From: Candidatus Saccharimonadota bacterium
GTDB lineage: Bacteria > Patescibacteriota > Saccharimonadia > Saccharimonadales > UBA4665
Direction of reading: 5' to 3'
Length of the DNA stretch: 64,000 bases
Assembly (NCBI GenBank): GCA_029288485.1
Contig: JARIHC010000005.1
Span: 1 to 64,000 of the forward strand
The translations under genes and the position numbers were made by a program. The notes beneath the pieces are model-generated. The model was not told the origin of the DNA. It ran no database searches and saw only the letters and a list, made by a program, of their open reading frames with translations. This document shows, piece by piece, positions 9,569-56,996 of the stretch. Within the stretch, counting starts at the first letter, position 1; the number at the start of each line of letters is the position of its first letter.

Positions 9569-10408
9569 GTGAAGCGTCTTGAACATAGTCTTTCCATGAA
9601 AGATCATTCGTGGCATGTTCGCTGGTACCGCTACTGGGTGAGCCTTGGCGGTAAAGAAGCGGAGTACAAGGAGAATTTCTGCCGCTACGTGCGCGTGCTG
9701 CTTTTTTGGGCGCCGCAACGCTGGTTCTGGCAGGGAAAAATCAAAGGTGTGCTTCCGCCATGGGTAGCCTCTTTGGCTGCAATGGTTGTGGCATTTATTG
9801 TCACGGCTGCGGTCCTTTGGACGGGAACGTTTCTGGAGGTTCTGCTGGTTGTAGCAGGTGTAGCAATCGTTCTTGGCGCAGTCATAGCATTTGTCTACTG
9901 GGCGGACCAGAGCGATGAGAACGAGGAGAAGGCGATCGCAATCGTTAAGTGGTCGACCTCGCCGGTCTGGATTTTCCCCTATGCATTTTATTGCGCAGGA
10001 GAGCGATTGTGGGAGATTGTGAGCGAACCTGTGGAAGGTGTTTATCGTTGGTTCTTTGACCAGTCGTACATCGTGGAAGAACTGACGCCGTTCGCAATGT
10101 CGGTCATAGTCGCAGCAATAAGCTGTATCACGCTGCTGGCAATTTTTGACCCGATAGTTCTTCTGGTGATTGGGATTTTCATCGGTGTGATTGCTGCGAT
10201 GGTTGGGATATTTATTGGCCTTGTTCTGCTTGACGATGCAGGAAAGCTAAACTGGCTGAAGTCCAGCGGCCCAAAGCTGTTGAAGAAGACCATCGAGGGA
10301 ACGACCGACACGGTCAAGCTTGGATATACCTACGTCAAGGTGAAAAAGGAGGGAAGTGTTATTTGCCCCTTCATCGAGCTTGAGAAAACCGAGGCGAGCA
10401 CTTCCTGA
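9569..10408 (+). CDS. Membrane protein of unknown function, foreign-looking
   Basis: A 279-aa protein with an aromatic, basic N-terminal part (residues 1-60), helices at roughly 65-88 and 90-112, a cytoplasmic stretch with an acidic SDENEEK run, and two more helices near 175-220, then a Lys-rich tail. The GTG start has a textbook AAAGGAG 8 nt upstream, unlike most single genes here, which look leaderless. Codon choice also differs: the CTA, TTA and TAG-rich codons common in neighbours are rare, and third positions favour G and C. I do not recognise the family; acquisition from another lineage is inferred. Confidence 0.7.
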   Translation: MKRLEHSLSMKDHSWHVRWYRYWVSLGGKEAEYKENFCRYVRVLLFWAPQRWFWQGKIKGVLPPWVASLAAMVVAFIVTAAVLWTGTFLEVLLVVAGVAIVLGAVIAFVYWADQSDENEEKAIAIVKWSTSPVWIFPYAFYCAGERLWEIVSEPVEGVYRWFFDQSYIVEELTPFAMSVIVAAISCITLLAIFDPIVLLVIGIFIGVIAAMVGIFIGLVLLDDAGKLNWLKSSGPKLLKKTIEGTTDTVKLGYTYVKVKKEGSVICPFIELEKTEASTS

Positions 10409-16515: not shown

Positions 16516-17372
16516 TGGCTTACTATGTATTTCAAGTATCGGATTTGTCGGCAGGCAACAAACAGCGCAAGGCGATCGAAGTTTTTAATTTTTTGGTTCG
16601 AGACAATAACGTCTGGGGGTTTGGTCAGCATACTGCAAACAGGAGAGCGATAAAAGCTGGCGACAAAGTACTTTTCTATTTAACCGGAGTAAACAACCAG
16701 AATTTTGTAGGGGCGGCTAGGTTAACCAGCGGCGCATATGAAAACAAAGATCCAAAAACACAAAACTTATACCTAGACTCAGAAACTCTGCGGATTGACC
16801 TAGAGGACGTTATTGTTTTTCCAGAGCCAAAACCCAGGAAATCGTTTGCAAGTATTGATTGGCGGCCAGCGCAGGGTGGCTCAAGCAAAATCTCCGAACG
16901 CGACTATGAAGTAATAATGGGCAATGAGCCAGATAAGATTGGCGGCGCGGAGGAAATGGCCGAAGAAGAAATGGCCTATGCGTTAGAAAAACATCTCGAA
17001 GATTTTATTGTAGAAAACTGGCAAAAAATAGACTTTGGTGAAAAACTTGATTTGTTTGTAGATGAAAACGGCAATAAAGGCCAGCAGTATTACACAGAAG
17101 AGGTTGGCTACATAGATTTACTAGCACAAGATTCCAATAAAAACTTTGTAGTAATTGAACTTAAAAAAGGTCGCAAAAATGACGAAGTTATTGGCCAGGT
17201 GCTGCGCTACATGGGCTGGGTGCGCAACAACCTCTGCTCTAAAAAACAAGATGTGCGTGGTCTGGTAGTAGTTGGCGAACGTGATCCGAAACTGCAATAC
17301 GCGCTGCAGGAAATTAATGCCAAGGTCTCAGCCATGATTTATCAAGTTAATTTCAAACTCAAGAAATATTAA
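16515..17372 (+). CDS. EVE-domain / NucS-like PD-(D/E)xK nuclease fusion
   Basis: A 285-aa protein of two parts. Residues 1-~130 match an EVE domain of the PUA fold, which can read modified bases: it starts YYVFQVSD and has VLFYLTG and FVGAARL strands. Residues ~150-285 form a nuclease of the NucS/EndoMS C-terminal type: Glu162, Gly198-Tyr-Ile-Asp201, Glu215-x-Lys217 and QVLRYMGWV. The two parts are joined by an acidic EEMAEEEMAY linker. Its start codon overlaps the stop of the restriction gene (TAATG), so they are co-translated. A modification-dependent nuclease partner is inferred. Confidence 0.82.
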   Translation: MAYYVFQVSDLSAGNKQRKAIEVFNFLVRDNNVWGFGQHTANRRAIKAGDKVLFYLTGVNNQNFVGAARLTSGAYENKDPKTQNLYLDSETLRIDLEDVIVFPEPKPRKSFASIDWRPAQGGSSKISERDYEVIMGNEPDKIGGAEEMAEEEMAYALEKHLEDFIVENWQKIDFGEKLDLFVDENGNKGQQYYTEEVGYIDLLAQDSNKNFVVIELKKGRKNDEVIGQVLRYMGWVRNNLCSKKQDVRGLVVVGERDPKLQYALQEINAKVSAMIYQVNFKLKKY

Positions 17373-17396
17373 CTGGCCATTACTCGACAAGTACAT

Positions 17397-18293
17397 TCAC
17401 AGCCAATAAGCGACACCACCGTGATATGAACAGGCTCCCTGATGATGTAGGGCGTGTGTGTATGTCCCGTCATTACATACGCCAGTGGCGCCGCTCGAGT
17501 TACTGTCCGGAGACTCTACCCGGTTACCATCGACATTTGTGTAAGAGCTACCATATGACGAAGCTGGTGTTGGTGCTACATACGTTCCTACGGTCGTTAT
17601 TTGTGTAACGGGCTGTACAGTTATATTTGTATTAATAAGCTTTTTATTAATCTGCTTTCCGTTACTATAAGTAATTCTGTAAGTTAATATTTCACTACCG
17701 TTTGAGCCGATAGTAGTAATTTTGCTTGTGCCTTTAACAAGTGCGGATGATTGAGTTGAGGTGCTTGAAAAGGGGATGGACTTTATTTCGGCAACATCCT
17801 GAGTGGTGATTGTTGGGAATAGTTTAGCAACCTCAGATCTAGTGTAGCGGTGTATTATAATTGTTTTTTTGCTTTGTTTGCCATCGTTCACTACGACTAT
17901 GTCAATATTATTGTCGCCTTCATTTAAGCCTACTCGAGCCGTAAAAATTCCTCCTTTTACGCTAACTTTCTTTCCGTTAACAGTGACTACTGAATTTGGC
18001 GGGTCTACTTTCCCGTTGAGCGTGTAATCACTACCTTTTACTGGTGAGAGCGCGCTAGTTACATTAATGCTTGGTGGGGCAAATATAACAGCTAGAATAA
18101 TGAACATTATTAGTGCCGCACATGCAAATGCAGTAGCAAATTTTTTCTTACGCCGTTGCCAAAGAGGATGTTTCCAGATCAATAAAAAACCGATTGGGAA
18201 AAATATAAAAAAAGACAAAACTATAGCCCAAGTTTTGTAATACCATCTATATTTGGAGTGATTGCTACTGGTAGAGGTAGCTTGCTGACTCAT
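17397..18293 (-). CDS. Membrane-anchored protein with G5 and DUF3761 domains
   Basis: A 298-aa protein. Helices at ~22-42 and ~52-70 anchor it, followed by an extracellular bacterial Ig/glucodextranase-like module (DYTLNGKVDPPNSVVTVNGKKV), a G5-type module (SEILTYRITYSNGKQINKK) and a C-terminal DUF3761 module with CNDGTYTHALHHQGACSYHGG, where two Cys could form a disulfide. It is probably displayed on the cell surface. The role is unknown; G5 domains have been linked to adhesion and N-acetylglucosamine binding, but nothing here proves that. Confidence 0.75.
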   Translation of the reverse strand: MSQQATSTSSNHSKYRWYYKTWAIVLSFFIFFPIGFLLIWKHPLWQRRKKKFATAFACAALIMFIILAVIFAPPSINVTSALSPVKGSDYTLNGKVDPPNSVVTVNGKKVSVKGGIFTARVGLNEGDNNIDIVVVNDGKQSKKTIIIHRYTRSEVAKLFPTITTQDVAEIKSIPFSSTSTQSSALVKGTSKITTIGSNGSEILTYRITYSNGKQINKKLINTNITVQPVTQITTVGTYVAPTPASSYGSSYTNVDGNRVESPDSNSSGATGVCNDGTYTHALHHQGACSYHGGVAYWL

Positions 18294-18388
18294 AACATTC
18301 CCTTAAGTTATCTTATGTATAACAAACAATTATTAAATTTTTATTAACTAAAGCTGAGAAGCATATAGCTGCTATACTTTAACCCTGA

Positions 18389-19603
<1,215 letters not shown>

Positions 19604-19636: not shown

Positions 19637-20251
19637 ATGAGCGATCTCTTGGAGCGTTTAAGCGGCCCGCCTAAAAACGGCGAATACCATACGATAGGTA
19701 TAGACGGCCGCGGCGGCGCAGGCAAATCAACCCTAGCTAACTGGCTAGCTGAGCACATGCTGGAAGGTTTTGTGGTTTCTGGAGCCGACAATTATTACGA
19801 ACCCGTAAAAGACGACTTAGTGCCGGGACTGTTTAATACCGAGCGCTTTATGGTTGAGGTCGGCGCTTCTATAATAGCTGGCCGCCGGCAAATAGAGTAC
19901 CAACCCTACAGTTGGCCAAACCGTCCGGCTGCATTGCCTAGAACCGTTGAGGTATCCGGGGGATTAATTCATGAAGGCGTAAAGACCTTGGCGTTACCTA
20001 TTGATTGGGATGTCACTATATGGGTGGATTCGCCGCGCGAACTATGCCTGGAGCGATATCTTGACCGCCCGTTCAACGAACGCAAATCAAACTTTTCTCA
20101 TAAGCAACTTGAAGTTGCTGGCAAGGAATATGCTCGTCATGCCGACCAGCATATAAATGCTGTAGACCCGCTTCACACAGCGGATATCGTTATCGACGGA
20201 ACAGTTTCGTTTGAACAACAGTTTGCTGCAACTCACTTAGCGGCAGCTTAA
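19637..20251 (+). CDS. Uridine kinase-like P-loop NTPase
   Basis: A 204-aa P-loop kinase of the nucleoside kinase/phosphoribulokinase superfamily. Walker A is GIDGRGGAGKST (~21-32) and an acidic GADNYYEP segment follows, where uridine kinases carry DxFY(xx). A lid-type Arg-rich segment is seen (RYLDRPFNERKS). Likely substrate is a nucleoside, inferred from the fold. ATG 19637 is preferred over 19628 because the first ATG overlaps the TATAAA -10 box (19623-19628). Confidence 0.78.
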   Translation: MSDLLERLSGPPKNGEYHTIGIDGRGGAGKSTLANWLAEHMLEGFVVSGADNYYEPVKDDLVPGLFNTERFMVEVGASIIAGRRQIEYQPYSWPNRPAALPRTVEVSGGLIHEGVKTLALPIDWDVTIWVDSPRELCLERYLDRPFNERKSNFSHKQLEVAGKEYARHADQHINAVDPLHTADIVIDGTVSFEQQFAATHLAAA

Positions 20252-50049: not shown

Positions 50050-51057
50050 TTATTCTTCGCCGTCTATCAATAGCCTGAGCTGGCGGAGATTTAGTATACC
50101 GTCCAGTGCTTTCCTAAATTTTCTACCTGTAGTGTCATGAGACATATTTGGGTGAAGAAAATCACGACCGCTCGTAGCGGCAATGTCGTCTGAAAAGCTA
50201 TTAGCCGGCAGCCAGATACTGTCCGGCTCTGCCATATAGTCAAACTTATCTATCTGAAGCGAAAAGGCCATTTCCTCAAAGATGCCCAACGCGCTCACAG
50301 ATTGACCAGCGATAGATAGCTGGCGACTGTCTTCTAGGCTAACAAACGATGGGCTAGTGTTTTCGCGAACCATAAGGCCAGGGTCATATGATGTCTGCGC
50401 CAGCATCATTCCCCACGGACCTTCCCGCGCGATCCTTTCATTAAGGTATGCTTCTGGTCCTAATGCCGAACCGCCAAGACGGTACATCACGTTATCGGCC
50501 TTAAGGTTCTCGACTGCTTCCATTTCAAAATCATTGAAACCGTGAAGCTCTATCAGGCTAGATTTCAAGCTTGGACCATTGGCTGCAGTTTGTGTTATTT
50601 CTCGTGCGAAATAACCCCAAGGTATTAGCAAGAAATGCATATCATCGCCGATATTATTGTCCTCCGGCGTCCTTCCTTCCGGAGTTTCTCCGAACTCCGT
50701 TAAATCTTTTTTGGCTTTGCAGAGAGCCCTGAATTTTTGATTGAAATTCTGATGACTTTCTTTGAACTCTTTGAAGCTCGTAGGAACAGGGTTGTCTTTG
50801 AAATCCCAATGAGGTTGGCCTTGATACATCACAGCTTCATGCCAGGACTCAATAGCTTCGGAGATATCCTGTATTGCCCACGCTTCGGTGCCGGACCGTG
50901 CTGCTGGCTCGGTCTGTTCACTCCCTGCAGGTTCGCTTATAAGGCTAGCTGCTTGCGATACGTCGCCTGCAGTTCCGCTAAGCTCGGTTATTACATGATC
51001 GGGTACTTCAAATTCCTGGGATTTGCTGCGTTCACCAATAGACTTTTGCCCTCTCAT
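50050..51057 (-). CDS. Tagged operon protein A (unknown; family AD)
   Basis: A 335-aa protein, last gene of the VWA operon. Near its start it carries the shared helical motif FEVPDHVITELSGTAGDVSQ (~16-35). The rest is related to the protein at 52457: LTEFGETPEGRTPEDNNIGDD...FLLIPWGYFA, YLNERIAREGPWGMMLAQTS and ALGIFEEMAFSLQID all have counterparts there. No catalytic motif is recognised. An AAGGAAG Shine-Dalgarno precedes the ATG, and it starts 8 nt after the stop of the previous gene. No signal peptide, so it is cytoplasmic. Confidence 0.7.
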   Translation of the reverse strand: MRGQKSIGERSKSQEFEVPDHVITELSGTAGDVSQAASLISEPAGSEQTEPAARSGTEAWAIQDISEAIESWHEAVMYQGQPHWDFKDNPVPTSFKEFKESHQNFNQKFRALCKAKKDLTEFGETPEGRTPEDNNIGDDMHFLLIPWGYFAREITQTAANGPSLKSSLIELHGFNDFEMEAVENLKADNVMYRLGGSALGPEAYLNERIAREGPWGMMLAQTSYDPGLMVRENTSPSFVSLEDSRQLSIAGQSVSALGIFEEMAFSLQIDKFDYMAEPDSIWLPANSFSDDIAATSGRDFLHPNMSHDTTGRKFRKALDGILNLRQLRLLIDGEE

Positions 51058-51065
51058 AAACTTCC

Positions 51066-51734
51066 TTATATTTTAACCGCCGGAGACCAAAACTTAATTT
51101 CATCATGAGGCGTTCCCTTCGGGCTTAAGGGCGGCAAAGCAGCAACCCAGAACTCTTCACTTTTGCCCATACCTACCTTTAATAATTTTGGAATAAACAC
51201 AGAAGTGTCAGCTAGGTTTTCAACAGCGAAACTTCCTTGGTCGATAGTAGAAAGCGAACCCATATCCTCGGGCGGCGGCCCAGGCAGAGGAGTCCCAAGA
51301 TGAGCCACATAATAGGTGCCTATACCCGTGCTTAAAAGTCCGATCGATTGCCTGTTAACTATAATTCCATTTTCTTCGTCGTTGTACCTAAAGCCCATAG
51401 CACTTCGCAGTGTGTCCGCCTTCATGCATTTCAAAGATGAAATTCTCCTGTACGTTTGCTGTGTTTCGCCGTCGATAAAGGAGAAGTTTCGGGCAGCTCG
51501 CCTAATTTCCTCCTCGCTTGGTTCGCTCACCGAGCGTTTTGGTTTGGGTTCTGCTGCTGCAGACTCAGTTATTAACTCAGCCGCTACTGAAACATTACCC
51601 GCCGCTTGACCTAGATCGTGCATTACTTTATCAGATACCTCGAACTCCGTAACTTCTTGATCCGCAGCACCGCTCTCGTCACTACTGGTAGCAACGTCTT
51701 CCAGGGCTTGTCGAGGGACTCTGAACTCTACCAT
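51066..51734 (-). CDS. Tagged operon protein B (unknown; family BC)
   Basis: A 222-aa protein of the second paralogous pair. It begins MVEFRVPRQALEDV and has the shared helical motif again at ~30-50 (FEVSDKVMHDLGQAAGNVSV). The core RNFSFIDGETQQTY matches the protein encoded at 51728. The ATG at 51734 overlaps the previous stop (ATGGTAG), a coupled arrangement; a longer reading to 51773 lies inside the upstream gene. Unknown function, no membrane segment. Confidence 0.65.
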   Translation of the reverse strand: MVEFRVPRQALEDVATSSDESGAADQEVTEFEVSDKVMHDLGQAAGNVSVAAELITESAAAEPKPKRSVSEPSEEEIRRAARNFSFIDGETQQTYRRISSLKCMKADTLRSAMGFRYNDEENGIIVNRQSIGLLSTGIGTYYVAHLGTPLPGPPPEDMGSLSTIDQGSFAVENLADTSVFIPKLLKVGMGKSEEFWVAALPPLSPKGTPHDEIKFWSPAVKI

Positions 51735-52453
51735 GTTTCCAACTTCGTAATTGCCAGTAATGCTGGCAGCCATTCGTTATCATTCAGTCTGGGAACTGCT
51801 TTTCGCGGGCTGCCAAACGGACCGCCAAATGTTTCACACGGCTCCATATCTAAAAAGTTTCGTATTGGGAATTTGCGGCCGCGGTATCTAATGAAATCGG
51901 ACTCGCTCTCTAGTTTGTCTGCGAGCCGAAGGTTCTCTAGCGGCTTGCCCATGCAAACAATATAAAATTCGTCATAAGCTTCACCCATTACAGCACCACC
52001 CGGATGTTTGCGAAAGTGACGCATTATATCATTATCTTTTACAAGGCCAACGGCTTGCTCGTTGACGCCTCTGTCTGAATAAAGCTCAATAAGTTTGTCA
52101 GCAAGCGAGGTTACCTTTTTTTGTTGCCGCGGACTCAACTCGTCAAATATTGCTGCGGTCTCGCCGCTATAGAACGAAAAGTTTCGCTTAGCAAGCTCTT
52201 GGTTTCGCTCGCGTGTCCATTGGTCAATGGCTGTTTCTGGTGGAGCGGGAGCTGCCGCGGCTTCTTCCTCGGCGCTAACCAATAGTTTGGCAGCATCTGA
52301 GGTTTCACCGGCAGTCCGGCCAAGGTCGTGCACTGCGCGGTCGGGGACTGAAAAATTAACGTCTTTATGGTCGGTTGAGGTGTCTCCGGTCTGGGCTGGT
52401 ATTACCGGACCGCTCTGTTCAACCGCGCGCCGCGGGACCTCAAACTCACCCAT
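51728..52453 (-). CDS. Tagged operon protein C (unknown; family BC)
   Basis: A 241-aa protein starting MGEFEVPRRAVEQSG, with the shared helical motif FSVPDRAVHDLGRTAGETSD at ~34-53 and a low-complexity Ala/Glu linker at ~63-80. The core RNFSFYSGETAAIF is also in the protein at 51066. It overlaps the downstream start by 7 nt and begins 3 nt after the upstream gene. I see no enzyme motif. Its C-terminal half contains FPIRNFLDMEP and ends WLPALLAITKLETW. Confidence 0.68.
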   Translation of the reverse strand: MGEFEVPRRAVEQSGPVIPAQTGDTSTDHKDVNFSVPDRAVHDLGRTAGETSDAAKLLVSAEEEAAAAPAPPETAIDQWTRERNQELAKRNFSFYSGETAAIFDELSPRQQKKVTSLADKLIELYSDRGVNEQAVGLVKDNDIMRHFRKHPGGAVMGEAYDEFYIVCMGKPLENLRLADKLESESDFIRYRGRKFPIRNFLDMEPCETFGGPFGSPRKAVPRLNDNEWLPALLAITKLETW

Positions 52454-52456
52454 AAG

Positions 52457-53593
52457 CTATTCTGCTTTCTCCCTCTCGTCGTCGGGATGGATGGCTATTC
52501 GGGCTACGTAATCATCGGGTTTGTAGTCATAGTCGTCCCTGAACCAGCCGTATGCAAAACGCTTATCTTTCTTGTCCCACACGCTATACGGACTTCCCAT
52601 ATGTTCTTCTCCGTCCCAGTGGTATTTAGTATAGTTGCCCATCATGAGGTTGCGTGGTCCATCAAACGTTCGGGGATCTTCTTGTAGTGTTAGCGCGAGC
52701 CATTCAAATATACCAAACGAGTCTGCCCTATAACCTTCTAGTCTGTATGTTCTATTTTCGATAAGTTCACTAGGGGGTTTACGCCTGCTTTGTCCTGCGG
52801 TGCTGCCCGTCTGGGCAAGTATGATACCCCACCAACCATCGCTCGCAAACCTGTCTTCTAAGTACTTGCCCCGATCTGCGTCGTACCCTGACCCATAGGA
52901 ATACGGTGCCCTGTAGGAGTAATTTATAGCGTTTCTATCAAAGAAGGCGGGGTCATCCAGGGCGTGCTCTTCTATGCCTTGCATAGATCGCATATATCTT
53001 ATTGCGGAGGTAGTGGTACCTTCGACATGATTTTTGAAAAATTCCCATGGCACAAGGAGCGGGGACAAGGATCTACCTATGTTATGGCCTCCGATTGTCC
53101 TGCCCTCGGTGGTTTTGCCGAAATCTATCATATCTAGCTTAATACGCGTTAATTGGTCTACGGTACCTTCATAATCACGCAGGAAACGTTTGAAGTGTTC
53201 CGGATCACGCGGCAAACGCAAACCCGGCGTGTCTATGTACTGTTTCCAGCTCTCAACAGCGTGTTCAATTCCTTGGATGATTGATTCACGCGTTACCTCA
53301 TAGGTGGCAGGTGGCTCGTCGCTTTGGGCCAGTTCTTCTATAGATTCCTCTACAGTAGGATCGCCCAAGTCTTCGCGCGCTCTTATAGAAACTTCAAAGG
53401 CGCTATTCGCGGCCGGCGCTTCTTCAGCCTCTGTCCCGGTCTCTGTAGGTACGGCTGCTGCATTACCTTCCAGCAGGTCGCCAGCCTGTGAAATATCGCC
53501 TGCTAGATCGCCTAAGCCCTTGACGGCTTCGGCGGACGGAGTGAAGCCGGCTTCCTCGGCGGTCTGAGGACCGTAAACTGCACGCTCAAGCAT
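52457..53593 (-). CDS. Tagged operon protein D (unknown; family AD)
   Basis: A 378-aa protein with the shared motif near its start (FTPSAEAVKGLGDLAGDISQ, ~17-36) and what looks like a second, weaker copy at ~66-80 (FEVSIRAREDLGD). From ~105 on it resembles the protein at 50050: MIDFGKTTEGRTIGGHNIG, LLVPWEFF, YLEDRFASDGWWGIILAQTG and FGIFEWLALTLQED. The region between is Ala/Glu/Pro-rich and probably disordered. Its ATG overlaps the VWA gene stop by 8 nt. Unknown function. Confidence 0.7.
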   Translation of the reverse strand: MLERAVYGPQTAEEAGFTPSAEAVKGLGDLAGDISQAGDLLEGNAAAVPTETGTEAEEAPAANSAFEVSIRAREDLGDPTVEESIEELAQSDEPPATYEVTRESIIQGIEHAVESWKQYIDTPGLRLPRDPEHFKRFLRDYEGTVDQLTRIKLDMIDFGKTTEGRTIGGHNIGRSLSPLLVPWEFFKNHVEGTTTSAIRYMRSMQGIEEHALDDPAFFDRNAINYSYRAPYSYGSGYDADRGKYLEDRFASDGWWGIILAQTGSTAGQSRRKPPSELIENRTYRLEGYRADSFGIFEWLALTLQEDPRTFDGPRNLMMGNYTKYHWDGEEHMGSPYSVWDKKDKRFAYGWFRDDYDYKPDDYVARIAIHPDDEREKAE

Positions 53594-55505
53594 AGAACTG
53601 CCTTTCGTAGTATCTTAAAATATTCAGTAAACTGGGCGGTAACTGAGAAGTGCGGTTAACGTTAGCGGCATACTTGCCAACTCCCAGAGAATCGCTTCCC
53701 CCAAGACTGAAGTTCCAAATCAGACAGTTATCAGGTTTCGACCGGACGATGCCCGTGGGGGAGTCGCCAAACATATTATCGCTGATAACTATACCTATAA
53801 TATCTCGCTCGGGGTTTTTCCTAGCTTCGTCAGTTATGGTGCGCAAACCCGGGCAAACCAAGGTATCAGAGTTGTCTGCCTTCTTAGTGTTAATGAACAT
53901 TCTAGCTCTGTCCTGGCCTGAAGGTTCATGCGAAAGAGGCATTATAGTTTCTGTGCTACCTGCAAAGATCATGCTAGCTACTCTTACGTCGGGCTGTTTA
54001 TTCTGAATTTCCTTGGCCTGATACCGCCTGGCCAATAAAAGGCCCTCGACAAGTACCAAGCTCATCTCTGCGGCGTGTAAAGCAGGGGCTCCGTTCATTG
54101 ATTTGCTCGAATCAATGTGCAGCCAAACGTCTAAGCCGTTAAATTGCCGGATGACTTTCGGCGCTTGCCGTTTCTTACCGCGCCAGATCTCCATCGGAAT
54201 GTCCATTTCAGCTTGAATAAAGGCTTCTGGGAGCCGCCCGGTATGCAGTTTTTCGCCGTCAGGCAAGGCTTGCCTGGTGTGTCGCATACGCGACTGCACC
54301 ATGTCTATTGTTGCTAAACGCTGGAAGATTTCTGCAGTTTCTTCTATGAGAGGTCGCCGAAGAACCAAAGCTCTGGCATAAGCCTCAGCGTCAGGACCGC
54401 GCAATCCCAGCTCGCTCTCCACGGTGCCACCCAGTCTGCCAATCATTTCTTCTACCGACTCTTTTTGACCCCTAGGGCTATTATCTTCTTGCTCGGAAGA
54501 TATGCTGTCTCGGATATCCTCCACAGCGTGCATTACTTTTTTGCCAAGGTTGGAAAAGAGATTGCCCTTATCGTTTCGCCCGTTTGTGGCGTCTTCTTGC
54601 GGCGCGCCCTCTTCGTCACCTTCATCATCTGCTTCTTCGTCAGATTCGCCTTCTTCTCCCTCGTCTTCAGGCTCGTAGGCTTTATACTTTTCGGCAGCTT
54701 CTTCTAGCTGCTCTTCGAAAGTGTTGCTTCCTTTGCCCTGATTGTCGCTACTAGACCCATTGTTAGTAGATTGGGTCATATCGGATTGGCGGTTAGCGTC
54801 GCCAGCTTCTTCCTCCATCTCCTCTTCAGATCTATTTTGCCGCTCTTCTTCAACTAATTTATCGTACTCCGGTTTGATAAATTTTTCGGCTAAGGCAATG
54901 CGTTGACGCAGAGTAGTTCCTTTGTGAATCAAAACTTCTGCGAGGTCATGCCCGTCGTGGTCGCGCAAGCCGTCAATGACTTTCTGAACCTCGGGATCAA
55001 TCTTAAGAGGAGACTTATCGCCCAACACAGACTGGAAACGCAGCCCCATCATCATTTGAATGTGTTTGGGTGCTTTGCGCATATCTGTATCCTTGACGAG
55101 AGTTTCGTAAAGATCGGGCGCGGTTTCACGGTAGCCTTTATAGTCGTTAACCGTACGGCCATCTATAGTTACGTCATGCACGCCGTTCCAGAATAACTTA
55201 TCGGTTTCTGAAAGCTTTGAAATATCCGGCTGATACTCCCATTCCGGATCTAGCATGTCGCCTGTGTGCTGCAATTCGTGGCGAGTTACAAAAAGAACAT
55301 CGTCTTCCTTAACTTCTCCCGAAGGTTGGGCTAGTTGAGACGGATCTATTGTAATCTTTATACCGCTTGTAGGGTCCGCTCCGCAGCTCCAACCCTTGCC
55401 AGGCGCAACTTCAGTGGCGACGTCAGACAGGTTAAAGACGCTGGATAAGTCTTCAACGTCTTCCGCCAAGTGGCTGAAGTCAATTGTGGAAGCTTGCTCT
55501 GTCAT
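53586..55505 (-). CDS. Metallopeptidase-VWA protein (DUF2201-like)
   Basis: A 639-aa three-part protein. The N-terminal part has a zinc peptidase motif His76-Glu-Leu-Gln-His80, followed by WNGVHDVTIDGRTVND, which could give the third ligand. An acidic, Glu/Asp/Ser-rich linker (~230-330) follows. The C-terminal VWA domain has a MIDAS motif DSSKS starting at Asp465, with a Thr-containing DTLVCPG later. VWA-metallopeptidase proteins of this type pair with MoxR AAA+ ATPases. Start at MTEQ (55505): TAAAAT lies 10 nt upstream. It is the first gene of a five-gene operon. Confidence 0.82.
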   Translation of the reverse strand: MTEQASTIDFSHLAEDVEDLSSVFNLSDVATEVAPGKGWSCGADPTSGIKITIDPSQLAQPSGEVKEDDVLFVTRHELQHTGDMLDPEWEYQPDISKLSETDKLFWNGVHDVTIDGRTVNDYKGYRETAPDLYETLVKDTDMRKAPKHIQMMMGLRFQSVLGDKSPLKIDPEVQKVIDGLRDHDGHDLAEVLIHKGTTLRQRIALAEKFIKPEYDKLVEEERQNRSEEEMEEEAGDANRQSDMTQSTNNGSSSDNQGKGSNTFEEQLEEAAEKYKAYEPEDEGEEGESDEEADDEGDEEGAPQEDATNGRNDKGNLFSNLGKKVMHAVEDIRDSISSEQEDNSPRGQKESVEEMIGRLGGTVESELGLRGPDAEAYARALVLRRPLIEETAEIFQRLATIDMVQSRMRHTRQALPDGEKLHTGRLPEAFIQAEMDIPMEIWRGKKRQAPKVIRQFNGLDVWLHIDSSKSMNGAPALHAAEMSLVLVEGLLLARRYQAKEIQNKQPDVRVASMIFAGSTETIMPLSHEPSGQDRARMFINTKKADNSDTLVCPGLRTITDEARKNPERDIIGIVISDNMFGDSPTGIVRSKPDNCLIWNFSLGGSDSLGVGKYAANVNRTSQLPPSLLNILRYYERQFYA

Positions 55506-55547
55506 ATTATTGCTTATTTTAACATAGTGTTGTATACTACTCAATCA
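55506..55547. promoter_or_regulatory. Divergent promoter region of the MoxR-VWA locus
   Basis: The 42 bp between the two divergent start codons hold a TAAAAT on the minus strand 10 nt before the VWA gene and a TATACT on the plus strand 9 nt before the ATPase gene. The two -10 boxes are about 11 bp apart, so the two transcripts are likely co-regulated from one site. Confidence 0.5.
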
Positions 55548-56996
55548 ATGAATAGTTTTGAATGTCCTGGCGTCGAAACCTGCCCGGTGCGCAATGTCTG
55601 TCTGGCGTTGGAGGCCAACGGCGTAGATATAGGTGCTGGCGAACCCGACAACCCCGCTTGCCAGGTACCTGGAATGTTCGAAGAAAAAATGATTAGCAGG
55701 CGCCGCGGAGACGCTAAATTCGAACCAGAGATGCAGGCTGGCGCTGAAAAAACCGACCTAGTTGGTGAGCTCGGAAAAGCCGCTAGGAAAGTAATGGCTC
55801 AGGAAGCCCTACCTGCGCGTGAAGAGTTGATCGCCGCACATACGAATGTACTCGAAGCTCGAATAGACTTATGGCGCGCCATGCTCGAAGCTCCCAAGCA
55901 AAACAGGCAGTTTACTAGAGAAGAAAGAGCAGCGTACGAAGCTGTTATTGCCAAGCGAGAGAAAAAGGTAAAAAAGACCCAGGCCAGCGGTAGCGACGCA
56001 GTGTTAGCTCTGGCTGGATTCGACAGTAGGTGCCTAGACGAGCACAATGTCCTGTTTGATGAGCAGATGATCTCTATTATAAATAGGATGGTTGGCAATA
56101 TGATGGATGGTCAGCCAACACTTCTAAGGGGCGATAAGGGTATAGCCAAAACTGCCCTCGCTAAGTTTGTTAGCCGGTTAAATGATGACGAAGAACCGTT
56201 AGTGATTTCCGGCCACGGGGACATGGGCACTAACGAATTTATCGGCGAGGTTGGCCTAAAAGACGGTAAAACCTATTTTAAAGAAGGCCGCATACCTCAA
56301 GCAGCGAGGGAAGGCCGCACAACTATCCTAGACGAAGTCGACGTGTCAGAGGTAGCGGTAATGCTCCGCCTCCAGGATATTCTGCTTAATCTTAAGCCGG
56401 GCAGAGAGCTGGTCTTGCAGGAGAATGGGCAAGGTAGCATTATAGTGCAGCCCGGATTCGCAGTTATTGCAACTGCGAACGAGGCCAGCCGGCGTTATGT
56501 GCATCGCCAAGTTTCGGATCCCGCTAACCGTGATCGTTACGATATTATAAGCGTGGATTACCCGGACATGGATAATCTTAATAATTCGGCTGATATATTA
56601 CGCCGCAACATGGCTAATCTGCGCCGTTTAGCTTATGCGGCTGTCAGTGATCACCAGGGCAATATTACCGGCGTAAACAGTGACGAAATGGAGAGGCTGG
56701 TGACTTTAGCTTCAGCCACGCAACTGCTCTATTCGCAACCATCCACTAGCGCCCTTAGGGAGATCGCCGGAGTTAGCGAGACGACAGCAGGTGCTTTAGA
56801 CGAGGAGCCTATAATGACTGATTGTATTACGCCGCGCCGCTTATATGCTGATCTTAACCGCCTAGCACCGGGGAATAAGCCCGGCTTTAATTTTAAGAGT
56901 GTTACACAGTCGCTTATAGAGCGGCTTGATGAAGGCGACCAGACTCACAATAGCGACATAGCTCGTCACTTATTGTCAGAGATTAAAAAGGTTTAG
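55548..56996 (+). CDS. MoxR-type AAA+ ATPase with N-terminal Cys motif
   Basis: A 482-aa ATPase. Walker A is GDKGIAKT (195-202), Walker B TTILDEVD (258-265), sensor 1 Asn311 in VIATANEAS, and an Arg-rich RDRYDII region follows with a C-terminal lid. The first 40 residues have Cys6, Cys12, Cys18 and Cys38, which could bind zinc or an iron-sulfur cluster. A long helical region (~65-145) lies between that and the ATPase core, which is unusual for MoxR. The ATG at 55548 follows TATACT. It faces the VWA operon, its likely partner. Confidence 0.85.
   Translation: MNSFECPGVETCPVRNVCLALEANGVDIGAGEPDNPACQVPGMFEEKMISRRRGDAKFEPEMQAGAEKTDLVGELGKAARKVMAQEALPAREELIAAHTNVLEARIDLWRAMLEAPKQNRQFTREERAAYEAVIAKREKKVKKTQASGSDAVLALAGFDSRCLDEHNVLFDEQMISIINRMVGNMMDGQPTLLRGDKGIAKTALAKFVSRLNDDEEPLVISGHGDMGTNEFIGEVGLKDGKTYFKEGRIPQAAREGRTTILDEVDVSEVAVMLRLQDILLNLKPGRELVLQENGQGSIIVQPGFAVIATANEASRRYVHRQVSDPANRDRYDIISVDYPDMDNLNNSADILRRNMANLRRLAYAAVSDHQGNITGVNSDEMERLVTLASATQLLYSQPSTSALREIAGVSETTAGALDEEPIMTDCITPRRLYADLNRLAPGNKPGFNFKSVTQSLIERLDEGDQTHNSDIARHLLSEIKKV

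Follow-up and report, generated by a model that had tools for sequence, protein, structure and literature searches.

What might a MoxR-type AAA+ ATPase do beside a metallopeptidase and four proteins that all carry the same short N-terminal segment? The question is raised by a window of 64,000 nucleotides, the first 64 kb of the 88-kb contig JARIHC010000005.1 of a Candidatus Saccharimonadota bacterium (genome 0.91 Mb, 97% complete), in which a MoxR gene on the forward strand is divergent from five genes on the reverse strand. The first of the five encodes a protein that joins a zincin motif to a von Willebrand factor A (VWA) domain, hereafter zincin-VWA, and it is followed by the genes for the tagged proteins A, B, C and D (Table 1). 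We conclude that the six genes of this island belong to a MoxR/zincin-VWA system that is spread across Patescibacteria. The occurrence of the tags on interchangeable, partly hypermutated recognition proteins suggests an immune-like sensing system that has gone unrecognised. It probably serves sensing or conflict inside the cell and is akin in logic to the MoxR-vWA ternary systems.

A sequence-only reading of the window had described MoxR as facing a compact five-gene operon, the last four genes of which form two pairs of paralogs, and this description holds: all of the open reading frames (ORFs) lie where it placed them, A and D align at 31% over 241 aa (E=6e-23) and B and C at 32% over 154 aa (E=2e-16). 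When the A/D and B/C profiles are compared with each other only a 30-residue tag aligns (E=7e-6), and the same segment is recovered in single comparisons across the pairs, at 55% over 33 aa for C and D (E=2e-5) and 45% over 29 aa for B and D. The motif [FY]xV[PST]xx[AVSR] is found seven times in the 1176 aa of A to D and four times in the 19330 aa of the other window ORFs, and is thus about 29-fold denser in the tagged proteins.

In relatives of the island, a locus-conserved N-terminus is carried on exchangeable binding bodies (the loci and genomes compared are numbered with L and G, respectively; L020 lies in G012, L022 in G057, L062 in G399 and L100 in G550). At L100 eleven paralogs surround the MoxR/zincin-VWA pair, nine of which are homologous to the target of a diversity-generating retroelement (DGR) at L045 and two of which are WD40 propellers, and the complete members have one 50-residue N-terminus in common, which is 52-76% identical to that of the first propeller protein (E as low as 1e-20). 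Where relatives have DGR-type bodies, the hypermutated part is C-terminal. Two paralogs at L060 are identical over their first 120 codons (360/360 nt) with the remainder diverged, and two at L044 are identical over their first 40 codons (120/120 nt) with diverged bodies. Partners in f35 genomes combine a conserved N-terminus, MNCNELHKDI..., with propeller-like repeats, and other bodies comprise leucine-rich repeats (LRR) at L106 and other repeats at L107. We infer that the tag docks the partner to the machine. Tag sequences vary between lineages, and the homology of the window tag to that of L020 and L044 is marginal as judged by sequence; the case for homology across genera is made from position, homologous bodies and a marginal profile comparison.

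Several of these loci are linked to DGRs. At L044 (IMG/VR contig 3300033402_000781) two tagged proteins like those of L020 flank the pair, a DGR-type reverse transcriptase (RT) gene and a template repeat adjoin, and all mismatches of the variable repeats fall at template A (16/16 and 16/16, P=4e-12 each). The same bias is seen at L020, where the divergent MoxR/VWA pair has on its flanks three paralogs bearing the tag ...LSDEARTALGGL...SPANLLL (17/19 mismatches, P=1e-11), at L062 (18/22, P=2e-11), at L103 (21/21, P=8e-16) and at L045 (7/9). DGR-type RT genes adjoin the machine in L044, L045, L062, L102, L103 and L104; RT, template and A-specific variable repeat are all present in L044, L062 and L103, while L020 has the repeats without a nearby RT. 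An RT of G012 (L049) was considered as the partner of the L020 template and rejected, being on a different contig and retron-like, not DGR-like. No template was found for the L060 paralog pair. Alignments show homology between the target bodies of L044 and those of the window proteins A and D, and the A/D and L044 family is in turn homologous over its full length to the L020 and L060 proteins (hhalign E=1.9e-7).

Further features of the DGR loci were noted. A prophage-like contig (L074) carries a second DGR with its own RT, a 679-aa target at 17291-19330 and a template repeat at 19646-19755, with 24/25 mismatches at template adenines. Long simple repeats lie inside DGR-type RT genes near the machine, (AGAC)24 at L074:20091-21122, (GA)11 at L103:6889-7941 and (GA)15 at L102:4600-5750, and would make the mutator switchable by phase variation; none of comparable length was found in four other RT genes or in the window. 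In G057 two stretches resembling decayed DGR repeats (L022:6863-6981 and 9645-9764) flank MoxR beside a broken A/D-family gene, as if L022 were a decayed DGR locus. At L062:15338-17641 the variable region is fused to the C-terminus of MoxR, which recalls the lectin-ATPase fusions of the candidate phyla radiation (CPR) cited in PMC10907252.

The system is patchily distributed at every level: zincin-VWA was found in 5/93 genomes of the family, 12/393 drawn from the class and 14/380 drawn from the phylum. The linked pair is present in G012, G088, G017, G019, G057 and G003, in several of the f35 genomes and in further families of the phylum, and the named relatives that carry it include several Candidatus Saccharibacteria. 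When 393 genomes of the order were searched with a partner profile built from A/D and the L044, L020 and L060 proteins, matches were confined to the MoxR-VWA genomes G000, G012 and G057; a lone weak match elsewhere (G096) lay inside a GatB gene and was taken as chance. The four proteins are therefore not widespread apart from MoxR-VWA, the A/D-type family being found only in genomes with the machine and the B/C family, among 92 genomes of the taxonomic family, only in that of the window.

The machine itself is conserved. As the sequence-only reading had proposed, a single gene joins an HELQH motif, an acidic linker and a VWA domain with a metal ion-dependent adhesion site (MIDAS). Across 25 aligned proteins the MIDAS residues D-S-S-T-D are kept (D478, S482 and D589 in 25/25, S480 in 23/25, T561 in 22/25), as is HExxH in 23/25, with one extra residue (HExxxH) in L022 and L023. 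A Pfam scan gave no match to the window copy; the Pfam VWA family was matched by 8/10 aligned members, and the family profile matched CobT in the PDB across linker and VWA. The zincin motif was lost only in L066 and L067 (Gordonibacter and a Coriobacteriia metagenome-assembled genome, MAG), and both loci are without tagged genes; few as the independent losses are, we take this to suggest that the zincin works on behalf of the tagged partners. Related pairs without tagged genes occur in Coriobacteriia (Gordonibacter, Eggerthellaceae) at L065, L066, L067 and L070; HExxH was not found in L065-L067, and a molybdopterin-oxidoreductase-like gene lies close to the pair at L065 and L067. A role in molybdoenzyme maturation, which these neighbours might bring to mind, was rejected because those pairs are without tagged genes and, where aligned, without the zincin motif. 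A Clostridiales Family XIII MAG retains the zincin motif and has a 306-aa gene that overlaps the end of MoxR (L064:6882-7802) and may encode a tagged partner outside Patescibacteria.

MoxR relatives adjoining zincin-VWA genes are 38-44% identical to the window protein, and those outside the phylum, in Coriobacteriia, one Clostridiales Family XIII MAG and one Treponema MAG, 33-43%; a four-sequence alignment was the query for the contig scan, as a single MoxR protein matched nothing. The profile of these relatives matched Midasin, NorQ and CobS chains in the PDB. The N-terminus of MoxR also bears a four-cysteine motif that the sequence-only reading had passed over. Its cysteines are invariant in the window, L020, L044 and L060, the pattern recurs in L018 and L021, and it is possibly a metal or Fe-S site.

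Judged by their alignments, A and D are DGR-less proteins related to DGR targets; as far as searched, B and C form a private family, which among 92 genomes of the taxonomic family was found only in that of the window. No match to RVT_1 was found in the window genome and no DGR template/variable pair on the 88-kb contig, so the tagged set of the window appears fixed; it may descend from a DGR-bearing locus. None of the four has a family annotation, and a Pfam scan gave no catalytic-domain match, weak matches to LigA and Gag_p30 falling below threshold and being dismissed. The tagged proteins show no evident signal peptide or membrane segment, and a membrane-length hydrophobic stretch was seen in 0/13 proteins checked (highest 19-residue mean 1.44).

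A MoxR ring coupled to a VWA protein is expected from homology to capture a peptide at the MIDAS and to remodel it on ATP hydrolysis (PMC7159879). By homology, MoxR and zincin-VWA would form a machine with CobS/CobT- or NorQ/NorD-like coupling. A to D would be its recognition subunits, the N-terminal tag docking to the machine and the body binding a target, and the tag may be the peptide captured at the MIDAS or lie near it. Binding of a target by a docked body would change the complex and set off ATP hydrolysis by MoxR and remodelling of the VWA domain, and the zincin, thereby opened or released, would cleave a cellular or invader protein. We put the probability of this reading, a MoxR/zincin-VWA machine with tag-docked recognition proteins, triggered cleavage and an intracellular conflict role in defence or between elements, at roughly 0.55. 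A putative conflict role is favoured by the patchiness, the hypermutation, the lack of export signals and, at L044 and L020, the nearby prophage or recombinase genes. A more ambitious version, which we hold only tentatively, is that of a modular, tag-addressed receptor platform in which one ATPase/protease machine serves an expandable recognition set (DGR-hypermutated, WD40, LRR and other repeats), and which would amount to an adaptive-like intracellular immune repertoire in Patescibacteria.

The sequence-only reading had instead proposed a complete machine with its own clients, which the VWA/peptidase acts on, matures or secretes. What we find is indeed a machine that recurs together with tagged partners of its own; an action on these partners, or their maturation or secretion, is not supported in the form proposed, and since the relatives show exchangeable recognition proteins, 'sensor' or 'adaptor' fits these better than 'client'. 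The corresponding alternative is a dedicated chaperone or maturation machine that folds, metallates or trims A to D, the tag being a recruitment signal or a pro-peptide cleaved by the zincin. Known MoxR-VWA pairs do remodel dedicated clients (RavA-ViaA, NorQ-NorD, CobS-CobT; PMC7159879; PMC13036017, abstract), the machine profiles match CobT, NorQ and CobS, and the tag, which co-occurs with the machine, is N-terminal like a pro-peptide. However, one tag on bodies as unrelated as a propeller and a DGR target at L100 suits docking better than enzyme maturation, and with no catalytic domains recognised in the tagged proteins, some of them hypermutated, we regard maturation as unlikely. That A to D are ordinary unrelated enzymes lying beside MoxR-VWA by chance is barely credible: they lack a family annotation, but their common tag, paralogy and operon overlap, their exclusive co-occurrence with the machine and the equivalent arrays in many genomes all speak against it, and the partner-profile search of 393 genomes already contradicts it.

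Could the island instead be a phage-derived module, with a virion-assembly chaperone and DGR-diversified receptor-binding proteins left as prophage remnants in Saccharibacteria? DGRs commonly diversify receptor-binding proteins of phages, and L044 has terminase genes on one side and a serine recombinase on the other, which indicates a prophage. A MoxR and metallopeptidase-vWA pair of jumbo phages has also been proposed to act in virion assembly (PMC7824862). Yet no phage genes were recognised among the window ORFs beside the locus, nor beside L018, L025, L060 and L100, and neither eleven-paralog arrays in which some members have WD40 bodies nor the LRR bodies of other loci resemble tail proteins. 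The window zincin-VWA had no match in a tblastn search of 50,697 phage records, and the window MoxR matched one record, in the AAA core only. We consider this origin quite improbable, and more doubtful still a host-recognition system of an episymbiont, in which the variable proteins would bind surface molecules of the host bacterium. The latter accords with the abundance of DGRs in Patescibacteria and with host interaction as a proposed role for them (PMC10907252), but not with the hydrophobicity results given above or with a partner machine that is cytosolic by homology.

Several results weigh against the docked-sensor reading that we prefer. At two Patescibacteria loci, L101 and L105, no tagged gene is obvious beside the machine, and no effector besides the zincin, itself a predicted protease, was identified. 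PADLOC matched neither the core nor the tagged proteins, and the window locus sits among housekeeping genes. A hidden Markov model of the tag alone gave no cross-detection between the window and other loci, and hhalign gave a score of 17.1 for the window tag against that of other loci, with 17.0 for the best of 200 controls. No relatives were found for the bodies of B and C. AlphaFold models of A (pLDDT 51) and B (pLDDT 44) were too poor to use, and a PDB fold search with the model of A gave no match; we therefore make no claim of a fold, and in particular none of a C-type-lectin fold.

Patescibacteria DGR targets have so far had little functional context: those of CPR clade 2 are usually without recognisable domains (Roux et al., 2021, PMC8144416), and no link to conflict domains was seen for clade 5F CPR DGRs (Dore et al., 2024, PMC10907252). 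Here a subset of such targets is tied to a defined ATPase/protease machine via a common N-terminal tag, which makes the function of those targets testable. If our reading is true, very small genomes retain expandable recognition repertoires.

Table 1. Features of the six-gene island, in window coordinates
Feature	Position	Strand	Basis
MoxR-type AAA+ ATPase, 482 aa	55548..56996	+	Pfam AAA_5 E=3.9e-15
Four-cysteine motif C-x5-C-x5-C-x19-C, MoxR N-terminus, residues 6-38	55563..55661	+	
Walker A GDKGIAKT	56130..56153	+	sequence
Zincin - acidic linker - VWA protein, 652 aa (TTG start)	53586..55544	-	ORF, alignment
HELQH zincin motif, H89 E90 H93	55266..55280	-	alignment
D124, candidate third metal ligand	55173..55175	-	present in 23/25 aligned proteins
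Acidic low-complexity linker, limits approximate	54435..54857	-	sequence, alignment
VWA domain; MIDAS DSSKSM at 54096-54113, plus T561, D589	53625..54137	-	alignment
Tagged protein A, 378 aa	52457..53593	-	body + C-terminus homologous to L044 DGR targets
N-terminal tag of A	53456..53563	-	profile comparison, motif
C-terminal stretch of A aligning with L044 DGR variable regions	52487..52591	-	alignments
Tagged protein B, 241 aa	51728..52453	-	ORF, paralogy
Tag of B	52265..52372	-	profile comparison, motif
Tagged protein C, 235 aa; ATG 51734 alternative start	51066..51773	-	ORF, paralogy
Tag of C	51555..51662	-	profile match, E=2.6e-5
Tagged protein D, 335 aa, paralog of A	50050..51057	-	paralogy
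Tag of D	50923..51030	-	alignment

The reverse-strand genes are closely packed: zincin-VWA and A overlap by 8 nt, A and B are separated by 3 nt, B and C overlap by 46 nt (or by 7 nt if C starts at its in-frame ATG) and C and D are separated by 8 nt. The TTG start of zincin-VWA is only 3 nt from the MoxR ATG; the likelier start, an in-frame ATG at 55505, would leave room for a promoter between the divergent genes. A TATACT box (window 55520-55548) ends about 9 nt 5' of the MoxR ATG, which fits a leaderless transcript. Elsewhere in the window, at 1653-1762, lies an S-adenosylmethionine (SAM) riboswitch (RF00162, 50 bits); the genome is small and of Saccharibacteria type.

The sequence-only reading knew of no described system of this composition. 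The exact composition was indeed not found in the literature searched, although its parts have precedents, the MoxR/metallopeptidase-vWA pair in jumbo phages (PMC7824862) and DGR-sensor MoxR-vWA systems in other bacteria (PMC7159879, PMC10907252). Closest in logic are the MoxR-vWA ternary conflict systems with VMAP, iSTAND, FtsH or beta-propeller components (Kaur et al., 2020, PMC7159879): both combine MoxR and vWA with variable third components, and beta-propellers, DGR links and a patchy distribution are reported there too. In the window, however, no VMAP, iSTAND or FtsH gene was found, VMAP being absent from the Pfam matches of the window proteins. Gene order and orientation are unlike those of the VMAP system, in which the VMAP gene lies 5' of MoxR and vWA follows, and a pattern check showed that the N-terminal motifs of VMAP-type MoxR, WxhapG and PsWRxa, are absent in 24/24 MoxR proteins. 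The P-loop, GDKGIAKT, is unlike the GXXXTAKS frequent in the MoxR of propeller and FtsH ternary systems; no propeller or FtsH domain was found in the window proteins, and the propellers of relatives are separate tagged proteins. Here, moreover, the vWA protein has an N-terminal zincin, the recognition proteins are separate arrayed genes with a common N-terminal tag, and the host belongs to CPR, a group left out of the habit statistics of that paper for lack of information.

Dore et al. (2024, PMC10907252) describe DGR-diversified MoxR ternary systems in multicellular bacteria, in which the DGR target likewise adjoins MoxR and is a proposed antigen sensor. The variable domain there often forms one protein with vWA or another signalling domain, whereas here it is mostly found in a separate, tagged protein (it is MoxR-fused in L062). 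The jumbo-phage pair (PMC7824862) has the same two-protein architecture, MoxR beside an N-terminal-zincin vWA protein, but is assigned to virion assembly, and the passage on it mentions no tagged or DGR partners. CobS-CobT and NorQ-NorD are likewise a MoxR-type ring with a VWA partner; in the system described here, tagged variable partners take the place of the chelatase or reductase substrate.

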